From the NCBI GenBank assembly GCA_024222455.1, contig JAAEPD010000489.1, forward strand, positions 1-33,358: a stretch of DNA of 33,358 nt, read 5' to 3'. This document shows, piece by piece, positions 2,928 through 24,477 of the stretch. This stretch comes from Aureispira sp. (GTDB lineage: Bacteria > Bacteroidota > Bacteroidia > Chitinophagales > Saprospiraceae). Positions within the stretch are counted from its first letter, which is position 1. Every line of letters begins with the position of its first letter. Under the pieces are notes generated by a model that was not told where the DNA came from, made no database searches, and saw nothing but the letters and a program-made list of their open reading frames with translations. Made by a program: the position numbers and the translations under genes.

Positions 2928-3347
2928 CTATTTGTGACTTACTTTATATTTCAAACCTTCTGCAAAAGGAGTTTGAACGGAGAATACAGCCGTTCTGTGT
3001 GACTTGAGCATTCCCATAGGGATAAAATCAAAAGGCAGCTTAACTTCTGCTTTTTCACCTTTAGCACCAATCAGCATAGTTAGCACAATAGGTTCTTTGA
3101 TATAGATAGGGTAAGGTCTGTTATTTTTAACATAGAATGCTATTATAAATCTCTTTTCTACAGGACTAGTAGTCAAGGTTTTCTCTGGGTTTGAATAAAA
3201 CTTATCTTGTTTGATCTTATAGCTGATTGTGAAATCTCCATTGACCTCTAGTAGTTCAAAATCATCATAAAATGCTTTTATTTCTTGTGCTTCTACTGTT
3301 GCAGACAATAATAAGATTGAGGTTAGAATTAGTATTAACATTTTCAT
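2928..3347 (-). CDS. small secreted protein of unknown function
   Basis: 139 residues with a clear signal peptide ending TVEAQ at about residue 21. The mature part is mostly predicted beta strand, with alternating hydrophobic residues and no motif I recognise. It is the last gene of a minus-strand operon: its start is 12 bp from the stop of the DUF4249 lipoprotein gene, which in turn follows a TonB-dependent receptor. It converges with the ATP-grasp gene, leaving 12 bp between the two stop codons. The context suggests a periplasmic or cell-surface helper of the receptor/lipoprotein pair, which is an inference. Confidence 0.7.
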   Translation of the reverse strand: MKMLILILTSILLLSATVEAQEIKAFYDDFELLEVNGDFTISYKIKQDKFYSNPEKTLTTSPVEKRFIIAFYVKNNRPYPIYIKEPIVLTMLIGAKGEKAEVKLPFDFIPMGMLKSHRTAVFSVQTPFAEGLKYKVSHK

Positions 3348-19685: not shown

Positions 19686-20180
19686 TTAACGATCATAATC
19701 TTTAATAGTATTGAGTAAAAATGGTAAAATACTATTGGCTTCAAAATCTAAAAAATTGTAGCCCATCCAAGGTGTTGCATCATAGCCATCTACTATCTTG
19801 CCATAACTAGTACTTGTACTATCACAACAAAGAAAATACCAGTGTTTATCCGAATATTCGCCTATATTAAGCCAAACTTCCTTCACAGAATCCCCAACAC
19901 CTCCCCAATGTTCAGTATTAGCAATAACAGTTTCTGCATTAAAAAAAGCTGTCCCATAGTTTCCTCCCAACTCAATAGTCCTACCTCCTAAGGTCAATAA
20001 AAAACCTTTGTAGTCTTCTGGAATCAAAAACTGCTCTTTAGAAATAGCTTGTTCAAATTCCTTTTCAAAAAAAGGAGTTAGAGTAGTATATATTTTCTGT
20101 ATAATATCTTGATTTTCATAGGTTTCTTTTTCACCATAGACTTTACCTAAAGCAATGAGTTCTTGTATGATCTCTTCCAT
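19686..20180 (-). CDS. SMI1/KNR4 (SUKH) family protein
   Basis: 164 residues. The SUKH hallmark IPEDYKGFLLTLGG is at 53-66, followed by a Gly-rich stretch, the WYFLCCDSTSTSYGKIVDGY strand pair (about 113-132) and a terminal SILPFLLNTI helix. SUKH proteins commonly act as immunity proteins against contact-delivered or secreted nuclease and other toxins, though many are housekeeping or of unknown function. It starts 27 bp after the S41 peptidase gene and is presumably in its operon. No toxin gene is visible beside it, so immunity is only a possibility. Confidence 0.8.
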   Translation of the reverse strand: MEEIIQELIALGKVYGEKETYENQDIIQKIYTTLTPFFEKEFEQAISKEQFLIPEDYKGFLLTLGGRTIELGGNYGTAFFNAETVIANTEHWGGVGDSVKEVWLNIGEYSDKHWYFLCCDSTSTSYGKIVDGYDATPWMGYNFLDFEANSILPFLLNTIKDYDR

Positions 20181-20207: not shown

Positions 20208-21578
20208 CTAGAAGTGCTGTATAAGTTTTAGTGTATACTCTAGAGCTTTTTCTGCCTTAACTTTATAATTGGGTTTTACCCCTTTTTTATCTATTCTATA
20301 ACCATCTGCAGCATAATAATCTGCTGTAGGTATAAAAACATTAAACCCATCTATTAAGTCAAAAAGTTCACCATTAAGCATAGCTCCTGCTGTAGTTTCG
20401 CCTACTATGGTAGCCAATCCATATTGTTTCAGACAATGGATTATAGATTCACAAGTACTTGCAGTATTTTTATTAGCAAGAATAAACAGTTGCCCTTTAT
20501 ATGTTTGTTTAGCAGGATCTACCCGAAGACAAAGCCCCTCTTGCTTATGTATTCCTTTTATAATTAAATCAAAGCTAGCATCTGAGAACTGTGTTAAAGT
20601 AGGATATTCGCTCACTTCAGGCACCTCTTTTCCTTGATTAAACCAACGTTGTGTCAGAAAAACACCTCCATAATATGAAGCATCCACTAAGTACCTAACT
20701 AGTTGCATACCTGATTCTATAGAGCCTCCAGAATTATCTCTTAAATCAATAATCAAATGAGTGTAATTCTTTTTTAGTAAAGTATCAAAATATAGGATAA
20801 CTTCCTCTTTTGTACCACTAAAACTCTTGACTTTTAGGTAGGCTATACTGTCTGCCAACTCTTTTTGCTCTAGATATTTATTGGATTTAACAACTGTAGA
20901 GTCTATAGTTTTTGGACTCTTTTTAACCATAGCATAATGTGAAAATGGCAGTTTTTTAGCCAGAATAAAAAACCTAACTAACAATTCTACATCATCCTTT
21001 GCGCAACTTCCTACCTTTCTTATTTTACGCTTAAACCCTTTCCATTTAGAACGAGTCAATAACTTAGGGTTATATAATTTCTCTTCAGAAATTTCCAGCA
21101 ACTTATTTACTAGATTTGAATAATCTTTAGGAATAGGCTTTCCCTCTGAGCGATGCCCCTTCAAAGAGCCTTTAACTTTATGATTTCCATTACTCAACTC
21201 CCAATCTAAAATTGAATCTGTACAATACCCTTTCAAATTATAATTTTGGAAGGGTGTAGCTAATGCTCCTTCTACCCATGCAGTGTCATGTACTTGTCGA
21301 TAAACTTTCCCTCTAAATACACGCAAAAGAGAACCTGCTTTAAATTTTTTCATGGTCAGTCTAGCCAAATTACCTTTCCAAACCCCTAATGTTCTGATAA
21401 CAGCTTTAGGATCAGAAAAAGCTTCAAAAGTAGAATCTTTTAATTCCAATTTTAATGGAATATCGAAACTACTCCAATCCAAATGTAATTGACTATTCCA
21501 ATCCGTTTGAGCATTTACAGTTATACCTAAACCTAACAACATCCACACAAACATCAATAATACTATTAGCTTTTTCAC
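20208..21578 (-). CDS. secreted S41-family serine peptidase
   Basis: 456 residues with a signal peptide (about 1-23, ending VNAQ). The N-terminal 200 residues are unassigned. The peptidase core is at about 245-440: LIIDLRDNSGGSIESG at 275-290, nucleophile Ser374 in NKNTASTCESI, GETTAGAM at 393-400 and a C-terminal DGYRIDKKGVKPNY. In CtpA/Tsp enzymes a catalytic Lys lies 25 residues after the Ser; here that position is Ala399, so it belongs with the tricorn/IRBP-like S41 group that uses a different helper residue. No PDZ domain is recognisable. It likely cleaves peptides in the periplasm. A promoter with LytTR-type repeats lies upstream (21615-21680). Confidence 0.85.
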   Translation of the reverse strand: MKKLIVLLMFVWMLLGLGITVNAQTDWNSQLHLDWSSFDIPLKLELKDSTFEAFSDPKAVIRTLGVWKGNLARLTMKKFKAGSLLRVFRGKVYRQVHDTAWVEGALATPFQNYNLKGYCTDSILDWELSNGNHKVKGSLKGHRSEGKPIPKDYSNLVNKLLEISEEKLYNPKLLTRSKWKGFKRKIRKVGSCAKDDVELLVRFFILAKKLPFSHYAMVKKSPKTIDSTVVKSNKYLEQKELADSIAYLKVKSFSGTKEEVILYFDTLLKKNYTHLIIDLRDNSGGSIESGMQLVRYLVDASYYGGVFLTQRWFNQGKEVPEVSEYPTLTQFSDASFDLIIKGIHKQEGLCLRVDPAKQTYKGQLFILANKNTASTCESIIHCLKQYGLATIVGETTAGAMLNGELFDLIDGFNVFIPTADYYAADGYRIDKKGVKPNYKVKAEKALEYTLKLIQHF

Positions 21579-21614: not shown

Positions 21615-21647
21615 CAAAACTACAACGACTAACTACTGATAAACAAA
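21615..21647 (-). promoter_or_regulatory. promoter of the S41 peptidase gene
   Basis: On the minus strand TTTG (21647-21644), a 21-bp spacer and TAGTTTTG (21622-21615) fit the Bacteroidota -33/-7 consensus in full. The predicted start would leave a leader of about 30 nt before the ATG at 21578. Confidence 0.6.
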
Positions 21648-21650
21648 CAC

Positions 21651-21680
21651 TTGGTGCGAGTGGTAAAGCTTTTGGTGTGA
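21651..21680 (-). promoter_or_regulatory. candidate LytTR operator: two 9-bp direct repeats
   Basis: TTGGTGCGA (21651-21659) and TTGGTGTGA (21672-21680) match at 8 of 9 positions, separated by exactly 12 bp. This is the layout (9-bp repeats, 12-bp spacer, same helix face) known for LytTR dimers such as AgrA. It ends 3 bp from the -33 box of the S41 promoter and begins 10 bp after the stop of the LytTR gene itself. Confidence 0.55.
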
Positions 21681-21689
21681 ACAACAAGC

Positions 21690-22550
21690 TTATGGGATAA
21701 GTGGTTTGAGTCTTTCGATTACTTGTTTCCCTTTTGAGCGAGCGACGGGAACGACTTCAACAATATCTTGCAAATGCAAAGTATAACCTTGGGCATTTCC
21801 AGACACCTTTTTTACTTTATCTAGATTGACTAGGTACGAGCGATGGCAACGTACAACTTCTTTTACAAGATCTATTTGTTGCTCAACTTTTGTCAAACTA
21901 TTTCGGAGGAGTGTTTTCTGTAGCTTATCCTCTTTATACAAATAAAATTCAGTATAATTATTTGCAGCCTTTATATAATACAGCTCTGAGGGATAGAACT
22001 CTAAGACATCCTTTTTGTTTTCTCCTAATATTTTTAATACCGAAGGACTAGCACTTTCAGTAGATTCTCGTTCTATTTCTTTGGTGATAGTTGTCGCTAA
22101 ACTCTTATATTTTTGAAGTTGCTGTACATAATGAGCTAACACCAAAGCAACTATTGGAAATAATGCTATAGCCGAACTGTTGAAAACAAAACTAATATAG
22201 CCACTCCAATCAATAGGAATTTGGGTAAACCATACTAAATAGAAAAAACAGAGTGTAATAGTTAATATCACCTCTAGTAACAACCAAAGAATCTGTTTAC
22301 CTACAATCCATCTACTTTCATCAAAGAAGGGCAAGACCAAAGCGTCTAAACCTCCAAATACAAACAATACAATTCCACCATATCCTGACAAGAATAAATA
22401 TTTATAAGCATGCTCAAAAGTATCGGTACCAAAGGGCTGAAAAACTATTAAAAATAAGTCTACAAACAAAGCAGCCCCTAACCAAAAAACAAATCGCCAC
22501 AATGGTGATTCAACTAAAGGATAGGGTCTGCTTAGTATAGAAAATATCAT
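21690..22550 (-). CDS. LytTR-family transcription regulator with N-terminal membrane domain
   Basis: 286 residues. Four membrane helices (about 18-38, 52-75, 85-108, 120-142) are followed by a linker and a LytTR DNA-binding domain (about 172-283), with ELYYIKAANNYTEFYLY, the RCHRSYLVNLDKV segment (234-246) and a GYTLHL strand. There is no receiver domain, so it is not a classical response regulator; the membrane part may sense directly. It begins 12 bp after the DUF1295 gene and must share its operon. Likely targets are the S41 gene, via repeats at 21651-21680, and its own operon, via repeats at 23499-23528. Confidence 0.85.
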   Translation of the reverse strand: MIFSILSRPYPLVESPLWRFVFWLGAALFVDLFLIVFQPFGTDTFEHAYKYLFLSGYGGIVLFVFGGLDALVLPFFDESRWIVGKQILWLLLEVILTITLCFFYLVWFTQIPIDWSGYISFVFNSSAIALFPIVALVLAHYVQQLQKYKSLATTITKEIERESTESASPSVLKILGENKKDVLEFYPSELYYIKAANNYTEFYLYKEDKLQKTLLRNSLTKVEQQIDLVKEVVRCHRSYLVNLDKVKKVSGNAQGYTLHLQDIVEVVPVARSKGKQVIERLKPLIP

Positions 22551-22562
22551 TCGTTTAGATAA

Positions 22563-23483
22563 TTATCCAAATTTGGTAAATGGCACAAAACAAGGCACCT
22601 CTTTCTGATAATCCTTATATTCAGGATATTTAGAAGCCGTAATTTCTTCCGAAAAATTAGCACTTCTATTAAACAAAATAAGCAATAGCAAGGCTCCTAC
22701 TGCACTCCAATTTAGCCATTGACCAGTAGCTGCCACACTATAAAAATAAAAGGTGATCCAAATTGCCTGTTCTGCTGCATAGTTAGGATGTCTAGCCAGC
22801 CCCCACAATCCTGTACGGACAAACCCATGCTTGTATTCACCTAGCTCCTCTCCTGCATTGATTCTTCTATATTTTTCAGTCTGAAAGTTCCATTGTTGCT
22901 GATCTGCAATATATTCTATCACAACCAAGCCAACAAACACTACAGCTAATAAATAATCTGCCCAAAACAATTGAGGGTTAGCTGCATCAATACCTGTCAA
23001 GATAGGTAAGGTAAACAAGAAAATCAGCGTTTGCTGATAAAAACAGATAAAAAATAGGTTGAACAACATCCATACCCAGCGATTATTAAACCCTGGTTTC
23101 TGACGCAATACATCCCATCTATAATCTTCTTCACCTGCCCAAAACTTCCAAGAATAACCTCCTCTTCGGCCAAAATTATAAGTCAAACGAGCCCCCCAAA
23201 TAGTTACTAAAACAGCCATTAATATTAATCTAGGTTCTAAATCGCCTGCAACAGCAATATACCAAGCATAAACAATTGGCACAATACTCCAAAGCTTATC
23301 CACTTGGCTAGTATTCTTAGTCAACTCTCCAACTATAAAACAGTACAAAATAACAATTCCCACAATCACAGAAGTATCTAAGAGTATTCCTTGTTGCAAC
23401 ATGGTCAGTGGTTCCCCATAATAAAAGGAAAAAGTAGGCAACACCAGCAAGGTGAAAATCAAAATTAAAATAGTCCCTAACAT
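22563..23483 (-). CDS. DUF1295 / steroid 5-alpha-reductase-like membrane protein
   Basis: 306 residues with seven to eight hydrophobic helices. Typical DUF1295 landmarks are VDKLWSIVPIVYAWYIA, the ARLTYNFGRRGGYSW and EEDYRWDVLR blocks, and the C-terminal GLWGLARHPNYAAEQ (RHPNY at 231-235), the site related to the isoprenylcysteine methyltransferase/ergosterol C24-reductase cofactor fold. The family is assigned to lipid or steroid-like modification, but no bacterial substrate is established. It is the first gene of a two-gene operon with the LytTR regulator. The peroxiredoxin-like gene upstream is separated by a strong terminator. Confidence 0.85.
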   Translation of the reverse strand: MLGTILILIFTLLVLPTFSFYYGEPLTMLQQGILLDTSVIVGIVILYCFIVGELTKNTSQVDKLWSIVPIVYAWYIAVAGDLEPRLILMAVLVTIWGARLTYNFGRRGGYSWKFWAGEEDYRWDVLRQKPGFNNRWVWMLFNLFFICFYQQTLIFLFTLPILTGIDAANPQLFWADYLLAVVFVGLVVIEYIADQQQWNFQTEKYRRINAGEELGEYKHGFVRTGLWGLARHPNYAAEQAIWITFYFYSVAATGQWLNWSAVGALLLLILFNRSANFSEEITASKYPEYKDYQKEVPCFVPFTKFG

Positions 23484-23498
23484 AATTCAAATAGTATT

Positions 23499-23528
23499 TT
23501 GGTTTTGGTAAAATGGTAGTAGGTTTTG
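23499..23528 (-). promoter_or_regulatory. second pair of 9-bp direct repeats, before the LytTR operon
   Basis: TTGGTTTTG (23499-23507) and TAGGTTTTG (23520-23528) match at 8 of 9 positions with a 12-bp spacer. The period is the same as the pair at 21651-21680, and the shared core is TTGGT. The pair ends 15 bp before the DUF1295 ATG, so binding would more likely repress than activate. The G/T-rich local composition weakens the call. Confidence 0.4.
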
Positions 23529-23563
23529 AATAAAAGGGGCGCATAATAGGAGTTTTTAGAAAA

Positions 23564-23596
23564 AAACCTGCAAGATTAACAAAATCTTGCAGGTTT
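23564..23596 (-). terminator. rho-independent terminator of the redoxin gene
   Basis: A perfect 13-bp stem (AAACCTGCAAGAT with its complement), 7-nt loop. On the minus strand the stem is followed by further T (seven in a row including the last stem bases). It starts 38 bp after the stop at 23635. Confidence 0.92.
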
Positions 23597-23634
23597 AGTT
23601 GATAACTTTTTTCTATATATATCTTCTTCCATTA

Positions 23635-24477
23635 TTACAATTTATTCAAGACTTCTAAAAAGTCTTGAGGTTCGGGGCGTATTCTATAGTTCTCTGTCAA
23701 ATCTCTATACACAATCTTACCTTCTGCATCACAGATAATTACGGTAGGCAATACCGTATCGCTTGCATAGCCCAATGCTTGTAAACCTGTAGGCAATCCA
23801 CCATCATGAGCAATACCCAACTGTTGAGCAGCCTTATTTTCTACATCTACTAGAAAATCAAAATTCACCTCATGTTTTTGAGCCAATGATTTAGTGAACT
23901 TATGCGGCTGAGGGCTAACTAAAGCTACCTTTGCCCCTATTTTTTCTATCTCTTTGTAGCTCGCTGCTATTTCTTTTATCTGCATCATACACAGTGGGCA
24001 CCAATTCCCCCTATAAAACAACCAAACAGTCGGCTGCCCTACAAAGTCATTGGAAGACACCTTTTCTCCTTGAGGATTCTCAAACCCTACTTTGGGCAAC
24101 AACTTCCCTACATCCAAACTAGGTGTATGTCGATCAAGCCTAGAATACCAATAGACATAAGCCAACCACCCTACCACAAAAACTAAACTCAAACCTAAAC
24201 CATAATAATTGAGCTCCGCATCCAAAAACAAACTCAATATAGCCAAATCTCCACCCAAATACATGGGGATAGAAAAAGGCAGCAAATGTCGATCTACCGT
24301 AATTTTAGGTTTCACAAAAATAATACTAAAAAAGCCTGCCACCACTAGGGTATTCAGCAATACTCCCCACCACAAAAAAGAGCTAGAAAACCCTTCACTA
24401 TTCATTCCTAACCATGCACCTCCCAATATAATTAAGGCTATAAAAGAAGATAGGAATATTGATTTTATCCAATTCAT
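23635..24477 (-). CDS. membrane-anchored peroxiredoxin/AhpC-TSA-like protein
   Basis: 280 residues. Four membrane helices occupy residues 1-115. A thioredoxin-fold domain follows (about 125-278) with FYRGNWCPLCMMQIKEI, redox pair Cys160-Pro-Leu-Cys163, then ALVSPQPHKF, DVENKAAQQLGIAHDGG and the cis-Pro region TVLPTVIICD. This looks like the peroxiredoxin-like/redoxin group, which reduces peroxides or disulfides. The membrane part has no family I recognise, so the fusion is notable. Which side of the membrane the redox domain faces cannot be fixed from sequence alone. It is monocistronic. Confidence 0.8.
   Translation of the reverse strand: MNWIKSIFLSSFIALIILGGAWLGMNSEGFSSSFLWWGVLLNTLVVAGFFSIIFVKPKITVDRHLLPFSIPMYLGGDLAILSLFLDAELNYYGLGLSLVFVVGWLAYVYWYSRLDRHTPSLDVGKLLPKVGFENPQGEKVSSNDFVGQPTVWLFYRGNWCPLCMMQIKEIAASYKEIEKIGAKVALVSPQPHKFTKSLAQKHEVNFDFLVDVENKAAQQLGIAHDGGLPTGLQALGYASDTVLPTVIICDAEGKIVYRDLTENYRIRPEPQDFLEVLNKL

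Follow-up and report, generated by a model that had tools for sequence, protein, structure and literature searches.

A putative LytTR operator array between a membrane regulator gene and an S41 peptidase gene in Aureispira sp.

The window analysed here, 33,358 nucleotides of Aureispira sp. contig JAAEPD010000489.1, contains a short intergenic region that raises the question of how a regulator held in the membrane might control the gene next to its own. The initial annotation had described two 9-mers, TTGGTGCGA (21651-21659, plus strand) and TTGGTGTGA (21672-21680), followed by a TTTG-N21-TAGTTTTG promoter, and had proposed that a membrane-bound LytTR regulator may directly activate a secreted peptidase/SUKH operon from this site. 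Both 9-mers were confirmed, separated by exactly 12 bp; they adjoin the 3' end of the LytTR gene (stop codon 21690-21692), and the two boxes of the predicted promoter lie directly downstream, 21 nt apart (Table 1).

The DUF1295, LytTR, S41 and SUKH-like genes all lie on the minus strand and are separated by short gaps. The DUF1295 gene ends 12 bp upstream of the LytTR gene, with which it possibly shares one transcript. The regulator possesses a LytTR DNA-binding domain (PF04397, residues 187-281), which places it among the LytTR transcription regulators, preceded by about four hydrophobic segments (residues 17-145). It thus combines membrane segments, in a topology predicted from hydropathy, and a DNA-binding domain in a single chain, as transmembrane transcription regulators do. 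No match was found to it among PDB chains. The GTG start of the S41 gene at 21578 leaves an intergenic region of 111 bp. The S41 protein carries PF03572 and a catalytic serine (Ser374), as expected of an S41 peptidase, and by eye its N-terminus resembles a signal peptide; the SUKH label is weak, its SMI1_KNR4 score falling below the Pfam cut-off. The SUKH-like gene starts 27 bp after the S41 gene and possibly shares its transcript.

Table 1. Features of the LytTR-S41 region, with coordinates in the window
Feature	Position	Strand	Remarks
DUF1295 gene	22563..23483	-	PF06966, 143.6 bits
Membrane LytTR regulator, 286 aa	21690..22550	-	PF04397, 50.8 bits (cut-off 22.6)
Operator unit 1 (putative), AAACCACTTATCCCA	21693..21707	-	Weakest of the three; within the last LytTR codons
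Operator unit 2 (putative), TTGTTGTTCACACCA	21673..21687	-	11.9 bits, window-free matrix; contains most of 9-mer TTGGTGTGA
Operator unit 3 (putative), TTACCACTCGCACCA	21652..21666	-	10.2 bits, window-free matrix; contains most of 9-mer TTGGTGCGA
-33 element (predicted), TTTG	21644..21647	-	Offset 19 nt from the first base of unit 3
-7 element (predicted), TAGTTTTG	21615..21622	-	Contains a TTTG at offset 48 nt from the first base of unit 3
S41 peptidase, GTG start	20208..21578	-	PF03572, 105.1 bits
SMI1/KNR4 (SUKH)-like gene	19686..20180	-	PF09346, 21.4 bits (below cut-off 25.4)

On the minus strand, which is the coding strand of both neighbouring genes, the 9-mers read TCACACCAA-N12-TCGCACCAA. 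A second repeat pair, AAGCTTTTGG/AAGCTTATGG at period 20, belongs to the same repeating unit, and matrix scores resolve the whole into a chain of three, the second unit starting 20 bp after the first and the third 21 bp after the second. The repeat first noticed is therefore real, but its unit is about 15-18 bp long, reads on the minus strand and occurs three times rather than twice. The region accordingly has what is expected of a LytTR-type operator, namely at least two units in direct orientation with a spacing of about 20-22 bp, situated immediately ahead of the -33/-35 element of the target promoter, which here is a predicted one; unit 3 adjoins the -33 element. The Bacteroidota promoter consensus is of the -33/-7 type, and TTTG together with TAGTTTTG plausibly forms such a promoter. 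A scan for sigma-70 promoters was uninformative, giving 16 where 18 were expected. Where two of the array units meet they form an inverted repeat centred on AAGCTT (21666-21691, 11 nt, 82% complementarity).

By themselves the bare 9-mers are weak evidence, hardly beyond chance. Among 2000 dinucleotide shuffles of the 111-bp intergenic region, 2.75% contained an 8/9 repeat at period 21 and 6.3% one at period 20-22, while 62% of 300 shuffles contained one at some period from 9 to 59; the whole window has 41 positions with an 8/9 repeat at period 21. Letter-for-letter conservation of the 9-mers was rejected. In this genome a pattern search allowing up to three mismatches found 31 places, compared with 13 when the reversed pattern served as control. 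The only exact match was the window site, and the one-mismatch match (contig C602) lies inside an open frame.

The unit pattern behaves differently from the bare letters. Scored with a matrix built from other genomes, units 2 and 3 together reach 22.1 bits, the top of 66,688 positions on both strands, and no pair scoring at least as high occurred in 3 Mb of order-1 random sequence. The second-best pair in the window (14.9 bits) overlaps it, starting with the unit at 21707 in the last LytTR codons. For R1, a sequence-only model made from 33 unit pairs with the window excluded, the window site is the top match of the entire 7.76-Mb genome, though with an E of only 0.065 (the next 0.93); the model's best match in the window aligns units 1 and 2 at 16.8 bits. 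No second strong array was seen in this genome by the R1 search, a model of low information which diverged sites could escape, and the operator may for that reason serve the S41 promoter alone. Near another LytTR gene of the same genome, on contig C225 (L064 at about 2610, L082 at about 598), there is a unit pair of 17.9 bits, which may be the site of the regulator encoded on that contig; given this pair, it is possible that other regulators of the genome use similar sites.

In the collection searched the genus is represented by this genome alone, which ruled out footprinting among close relatives, and we turned to related regulators. LytTR protein matches were found in 204 of 248 genomes of the family. 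The matrix, of 15 positions (approximately TTGYCATTYRYCCCA) and read downstream of LytTR stop codons, was trained on 30 loci, the 29 best relatives returned (L032-L060) and L065 from Chryseobacterium vrystaatense, the one useful locus of three obtained by a scan of genome contigs; the window was excluded. Most of these 30 loci have a tandem array of units like CTTGTCATTCRTCCCAAAA after the LytTR stop. The 9-mers are not kept letter for letter in relatives, but the unit pattern is. For the leave-one-out test the LytTR set comprised 31 loci with the window included; L001 (a duplicate of the window), L003 and L066 were excluded, and L061-L064 and L067 failed the E-value limit. At 15 bits or more an array was recovered at 25 of the 31, against 3 of 1729 control blocks from the same loci, and at 18 bits or more at 23, against no control block. 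Six loci (L037, L042, L044, L048, L054 and L057) have no array of at least 15 bits after the LytTR gene. Of the 40 unit pairs, 33 were retained for model R1; from L034 two pairs were excluded, and a single pair from each of L040, L047, L052, L055 and L060. At L059 the matched stretch overruns the true stop codon, and its offsets are shifted.

Since the matrix seed was picked by eye within the family set, only the class-wide set is unaffected by that choice. A profile search of 395 genomes of the class gave a match at 1e-30 in 70, and we tested the 29 loci returned besides the window, among more places matched. Outside the training set, 20 of these 29 have an array of at least 15 bits, against 8 of 1332 control blocks; the other 9 have none at that score downstream of the LytTR gene. 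Some of the control matches are themselves array-like. L123 has several units (about 3287-3327) some 0.9 kb after the regulator stop, and in L141 (about 690) a pair lies ahead of the regulator gene, with TTATTTG after it. As these arrays lie elsewhere nearby, with none right after the LytTR gene, arrays may also serve other genes.

Under a chain rule of at least two units and a summed score of at least 18, arrays were found at 43 of 60 loci, with four units in 24, three in 10, two in 7 and five in 2. Steps between units were 20 bp in 72 cases, 21 in 18, 19 in 15 and 22 in 2. Counted from the first base of the last unit, the TTTG of the -7 box starts at offset 47 or 48 in 30 of the 43 arrays; every other adjacent pair of TTTG offsets, from 22 up, is occupied in at most 4 arrays (mean 0.63). 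A TTTG at offset 19, the -33 place, occurs in 15 of the 43. For the class set outside training the corresponding figures are 17 of 19 at 47-48 and 9 of 19 at 19. The window, with TTTG at 19 and 48, fits the family phase. Conservation of the phase of the -7 box is what one would expect of contact with RNA polymerase. Thus unit, 20-21-bp period and -7-box distance all recur after related membrane LytTR genes, which upholds the reading of the site as a LytTR operator beside a predicted S41 promoter.

The S41 subfamily of the partner gene occurs, at 1e-15, in 13 of 398 family genomes, that of the window included, and outside the family in one genome of another family of the same order (G038). In the genus with the nearest S41 protein (8 genomes) nothing was found beyond L068 and L069, and plasmid records gave one weak S41 match. 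Ser374, His214 and Glu377 are invariant in the 14 S41 proteins aligned. Met400 occupies what we take to be the position of the CtpA-type active-site lysine, and the protein is therefore not of the Ser-Lys kind; with its invariant His214 it appears, from the alignment, closer to the IRBP/tricorn-like kind. Besides the window, 11 of 13 S41 loci lie beside a LytTR gene. Seven are tandem (L068, L073, L075, L076, L003, L077 and L078), with matrix scores of 9.5 to 28.2 in their intergenic regions; L073 is the same place as L059 of the training set, the other six being outside training. In L003, L075, L076 and L078 (L077 is similar) the C-terminus of the LytTR protein is LSNSAQ. Its codons, CTTTCAAATTCRGCCCA(A/G), are themselves the first operator unit, and the conservation of this tail may be due to their forming the DNA site. 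L069 and L002 lack an adjacent LytTR gene; on the strand of the S41 gene their scores are 7.3 and -2.6, L069 reaching 14.3 on the opposite strand.

The remaining four loci (L070, L071, L072 and L074) are divergent. Their LytTR proteins, which belong to a different membrane LytTR subfamily, gave no tblastn match to the regulator of the window at 1e-3, and their intergenic regions score at most 8.4 with the matrix. They share repeats of the CCGTATTTCAGG type at 21 bp near the regulator start, and exact 10-mers at period 20-22 are present in all four, against 0, 2, 0 and 0 of 500 shuffles. These repeats resemble the LRS-like repeats of Bacteroides, as far as the accessible portion of PMC6193735 describes them.

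What lies downstream of the array varies among loci: DUF2306 proteins, CAAX-type proteases, TonB receptors and S41 peptidases. Among the 45 downstream proteins of A3 (45 of 51 frames, excluding L048, L057, L131, L138, L139 and L142), Pfam at E <=0.01 assigned 15 to DUF2306, 10 to the Rce1-like type (CAAX protease), 4 to carboxypeptidase-regulatory-like domains and 2 to S41. Membrane proteins of the DUF2306 type are the commonest putatively array-controlled neighbours of the class-wide membrane LytTR genes (L115-L143); in the open-access literature searched, a single paper contained both DUF2306 and LytTR, with one mention of each. On a quick tree of 65 regulators three changes are required to explain the S41 label, and well-supported branches force two of these. 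Target labels were assigned partly by eye, the largest BLAST cluster being divided into a DUF2306 group and two outer-membrane-like ones; taken together they require 25 changes, compared with a mean of 39.0 after shuffling. Targets are thus inherited yet often exchanged; the tree set was partly selected for having S41, so that the change counts are not a rate. We somewhat favour the view that the array belongs to a portable cassette spread through the class, composed of a membrane LytTR gene, usually four 20-bp units of which the first may overlap the 3' end of the regulator gene, and one exchangeable target of the kinds named, with its -7 box in helical phase. One S41 subfamily would then have joined LytTR genes more than once, also in the divergent arrangement, where both the regulator subfamily and the 21-bp repeat differ.

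The array is a variant of the known LytTR direct-repeat operators, whose geometry it shares. The sites recognised by LytTR domains are direct repeats with a spacing of about two turns, and LRS repeats just upstream of the -35 element are required for activation (PMC6193735, accessible portion). E. coli YpdB binds as monomers, its phosphomimetic form sequentially and cooperatively (PMC4847170, accessible portion). As in the YpdB operator, a GGCATTTCAT repeat according to the same text, we find direct repeats of 9-11 nt with spacers of 11-13 nt, about two helical turns apart and upstream of the target promoter; the core of unit 1, ACCACTTAT, and that of unit 3, ACCACTCGC, likewise resemble the LRS repeats ACCACTTAC-12-ACCACTTGC, which lie about 10 bp upstream of -35 (PMC6193735). 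The likeness to published LytTR sites claimed at the outset is therefore borne out, as far as these sources describe them. Unlike YpdB-type operators as there described, which usually have two sites, this one has three units (usually four in relatives), is located where the gene for its own regulator ends and has different unit letters, as is usual in the family.

The comparison with LRS systems goes only part of the way. In the accessible portion of PMC6193735 the LRS-like operons of Bacteroides have repeats of 11 bp, separated by 11 bp and placed 11 bp ahead of a TGTA-19-TATCTTTG promoter, and their regulators, like ours, have several membrane segments. An LRS as described in that text consists of a soluble regulator and a separate membrane inhibitor, and its repeats precede its own operon in positive feedback; in our case it is the regulator that has the membrane segments, an S41 peptidase gene comes next, and the array would act on this following gene. 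No array was found ahead of the regulator's own operon, the best unit pair over 22401-23640 on the minus strand scoring 3.1. The system is thus not an LRS. It resembles the transmembrane transcription regulators of PMC10269533, membrane-held one-component regulators abundant in Bacteroidota, and differs from them, going by the text accessible, in its putative LytTR operator and in the fixed array beside the regulator gene described here.

Because the array, seen directly after the regulator gene, recurs at the same promoter distance beside related regulators, it is very probably the switch by which the membrane LytTR regulator controls its neighbour. The comparisons among genomes support its reading as an operator with putative regulator binding, and with considerable confidence we suggest that the region is the operator of the membrane LytTR regulator encoded upstream, which would bind the three units and activate the S41 gene, probably also the SUKH-like gene, upon a membrane signal. 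The cytoplasmic LytTR domains would bind the three units side by side, all on one face of the DNA, since a period of 20-21 bp is about two helical turns. As the last unit ends beside the -33 element of the S41 gene, the bound regulator could touch RNA polymerase and might recruit it, turning on the S41 gene, the probable target, and probably the small SUKH-like gene as well. The trigger would be a signal sensed at or in the membrane. One might speculate that, with the operator placed where the gene for the regulator ends, the site could be kept close to the membrane as the nascent regulator is inserted into it.

The array could also be a LytTR operator of another kind, a repressor site or a mere tuning of a gene read through from the DUF1295-LytTR transcript. 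The genes share a strand and are closely spaced, no terminator is predicted between the LytTR and S41 genes, and LytTR repressors are known, PlnD being called one in the accessible portion of PMC2714321. Against this, the last unit leaves the -33 and -7 boxes uncovered, its position immediately ahead of -33 is that of the published LytTR activator repeats in the accessible texts, and the phase of the -7 box is conserved. We regard repression or read-through as rather unlikely, and the direct activation of the S41 (and SUKH) gene proposed originally is plausible on grounds of geometry.

It is very improbable that the sequence acts as RNA, whether as a terminator, an attenuator or an element at the 3' end of the LytTR message. 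The inverted repeat at 21666-21691 would be the obvious candidate, but no terminator is predicted there, and what relatives share is a direct repeat of fixed period upstream of a promoter box. That the repeats are a functionless chance similarity is the least probable reading of all: the shuffles of the intergenic region leave room for it as regards the bare 9-mers, but not readily for the high score obtained with a matrix from other genomes, nor for a position and phase common to many loci.

For membrane LytTR proteins of Bacteroidota, the open-access literature, in its accessible portions, yielded operator repeats only for the LRS-like operons of Bacteroides. By the open-access literature searched, what is new is an array of usually four units, its location downstream of the regulator gene, its fixed phase and its class-wide spread with changing targets. 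Membrane-held transcription factors are plentiful in Bacteroidota, and an array at a fixed place points to the binding site and the probable target of many uncharacterised regulators. It also makes testable how a membrane-tethered regulator reaches its DNA.
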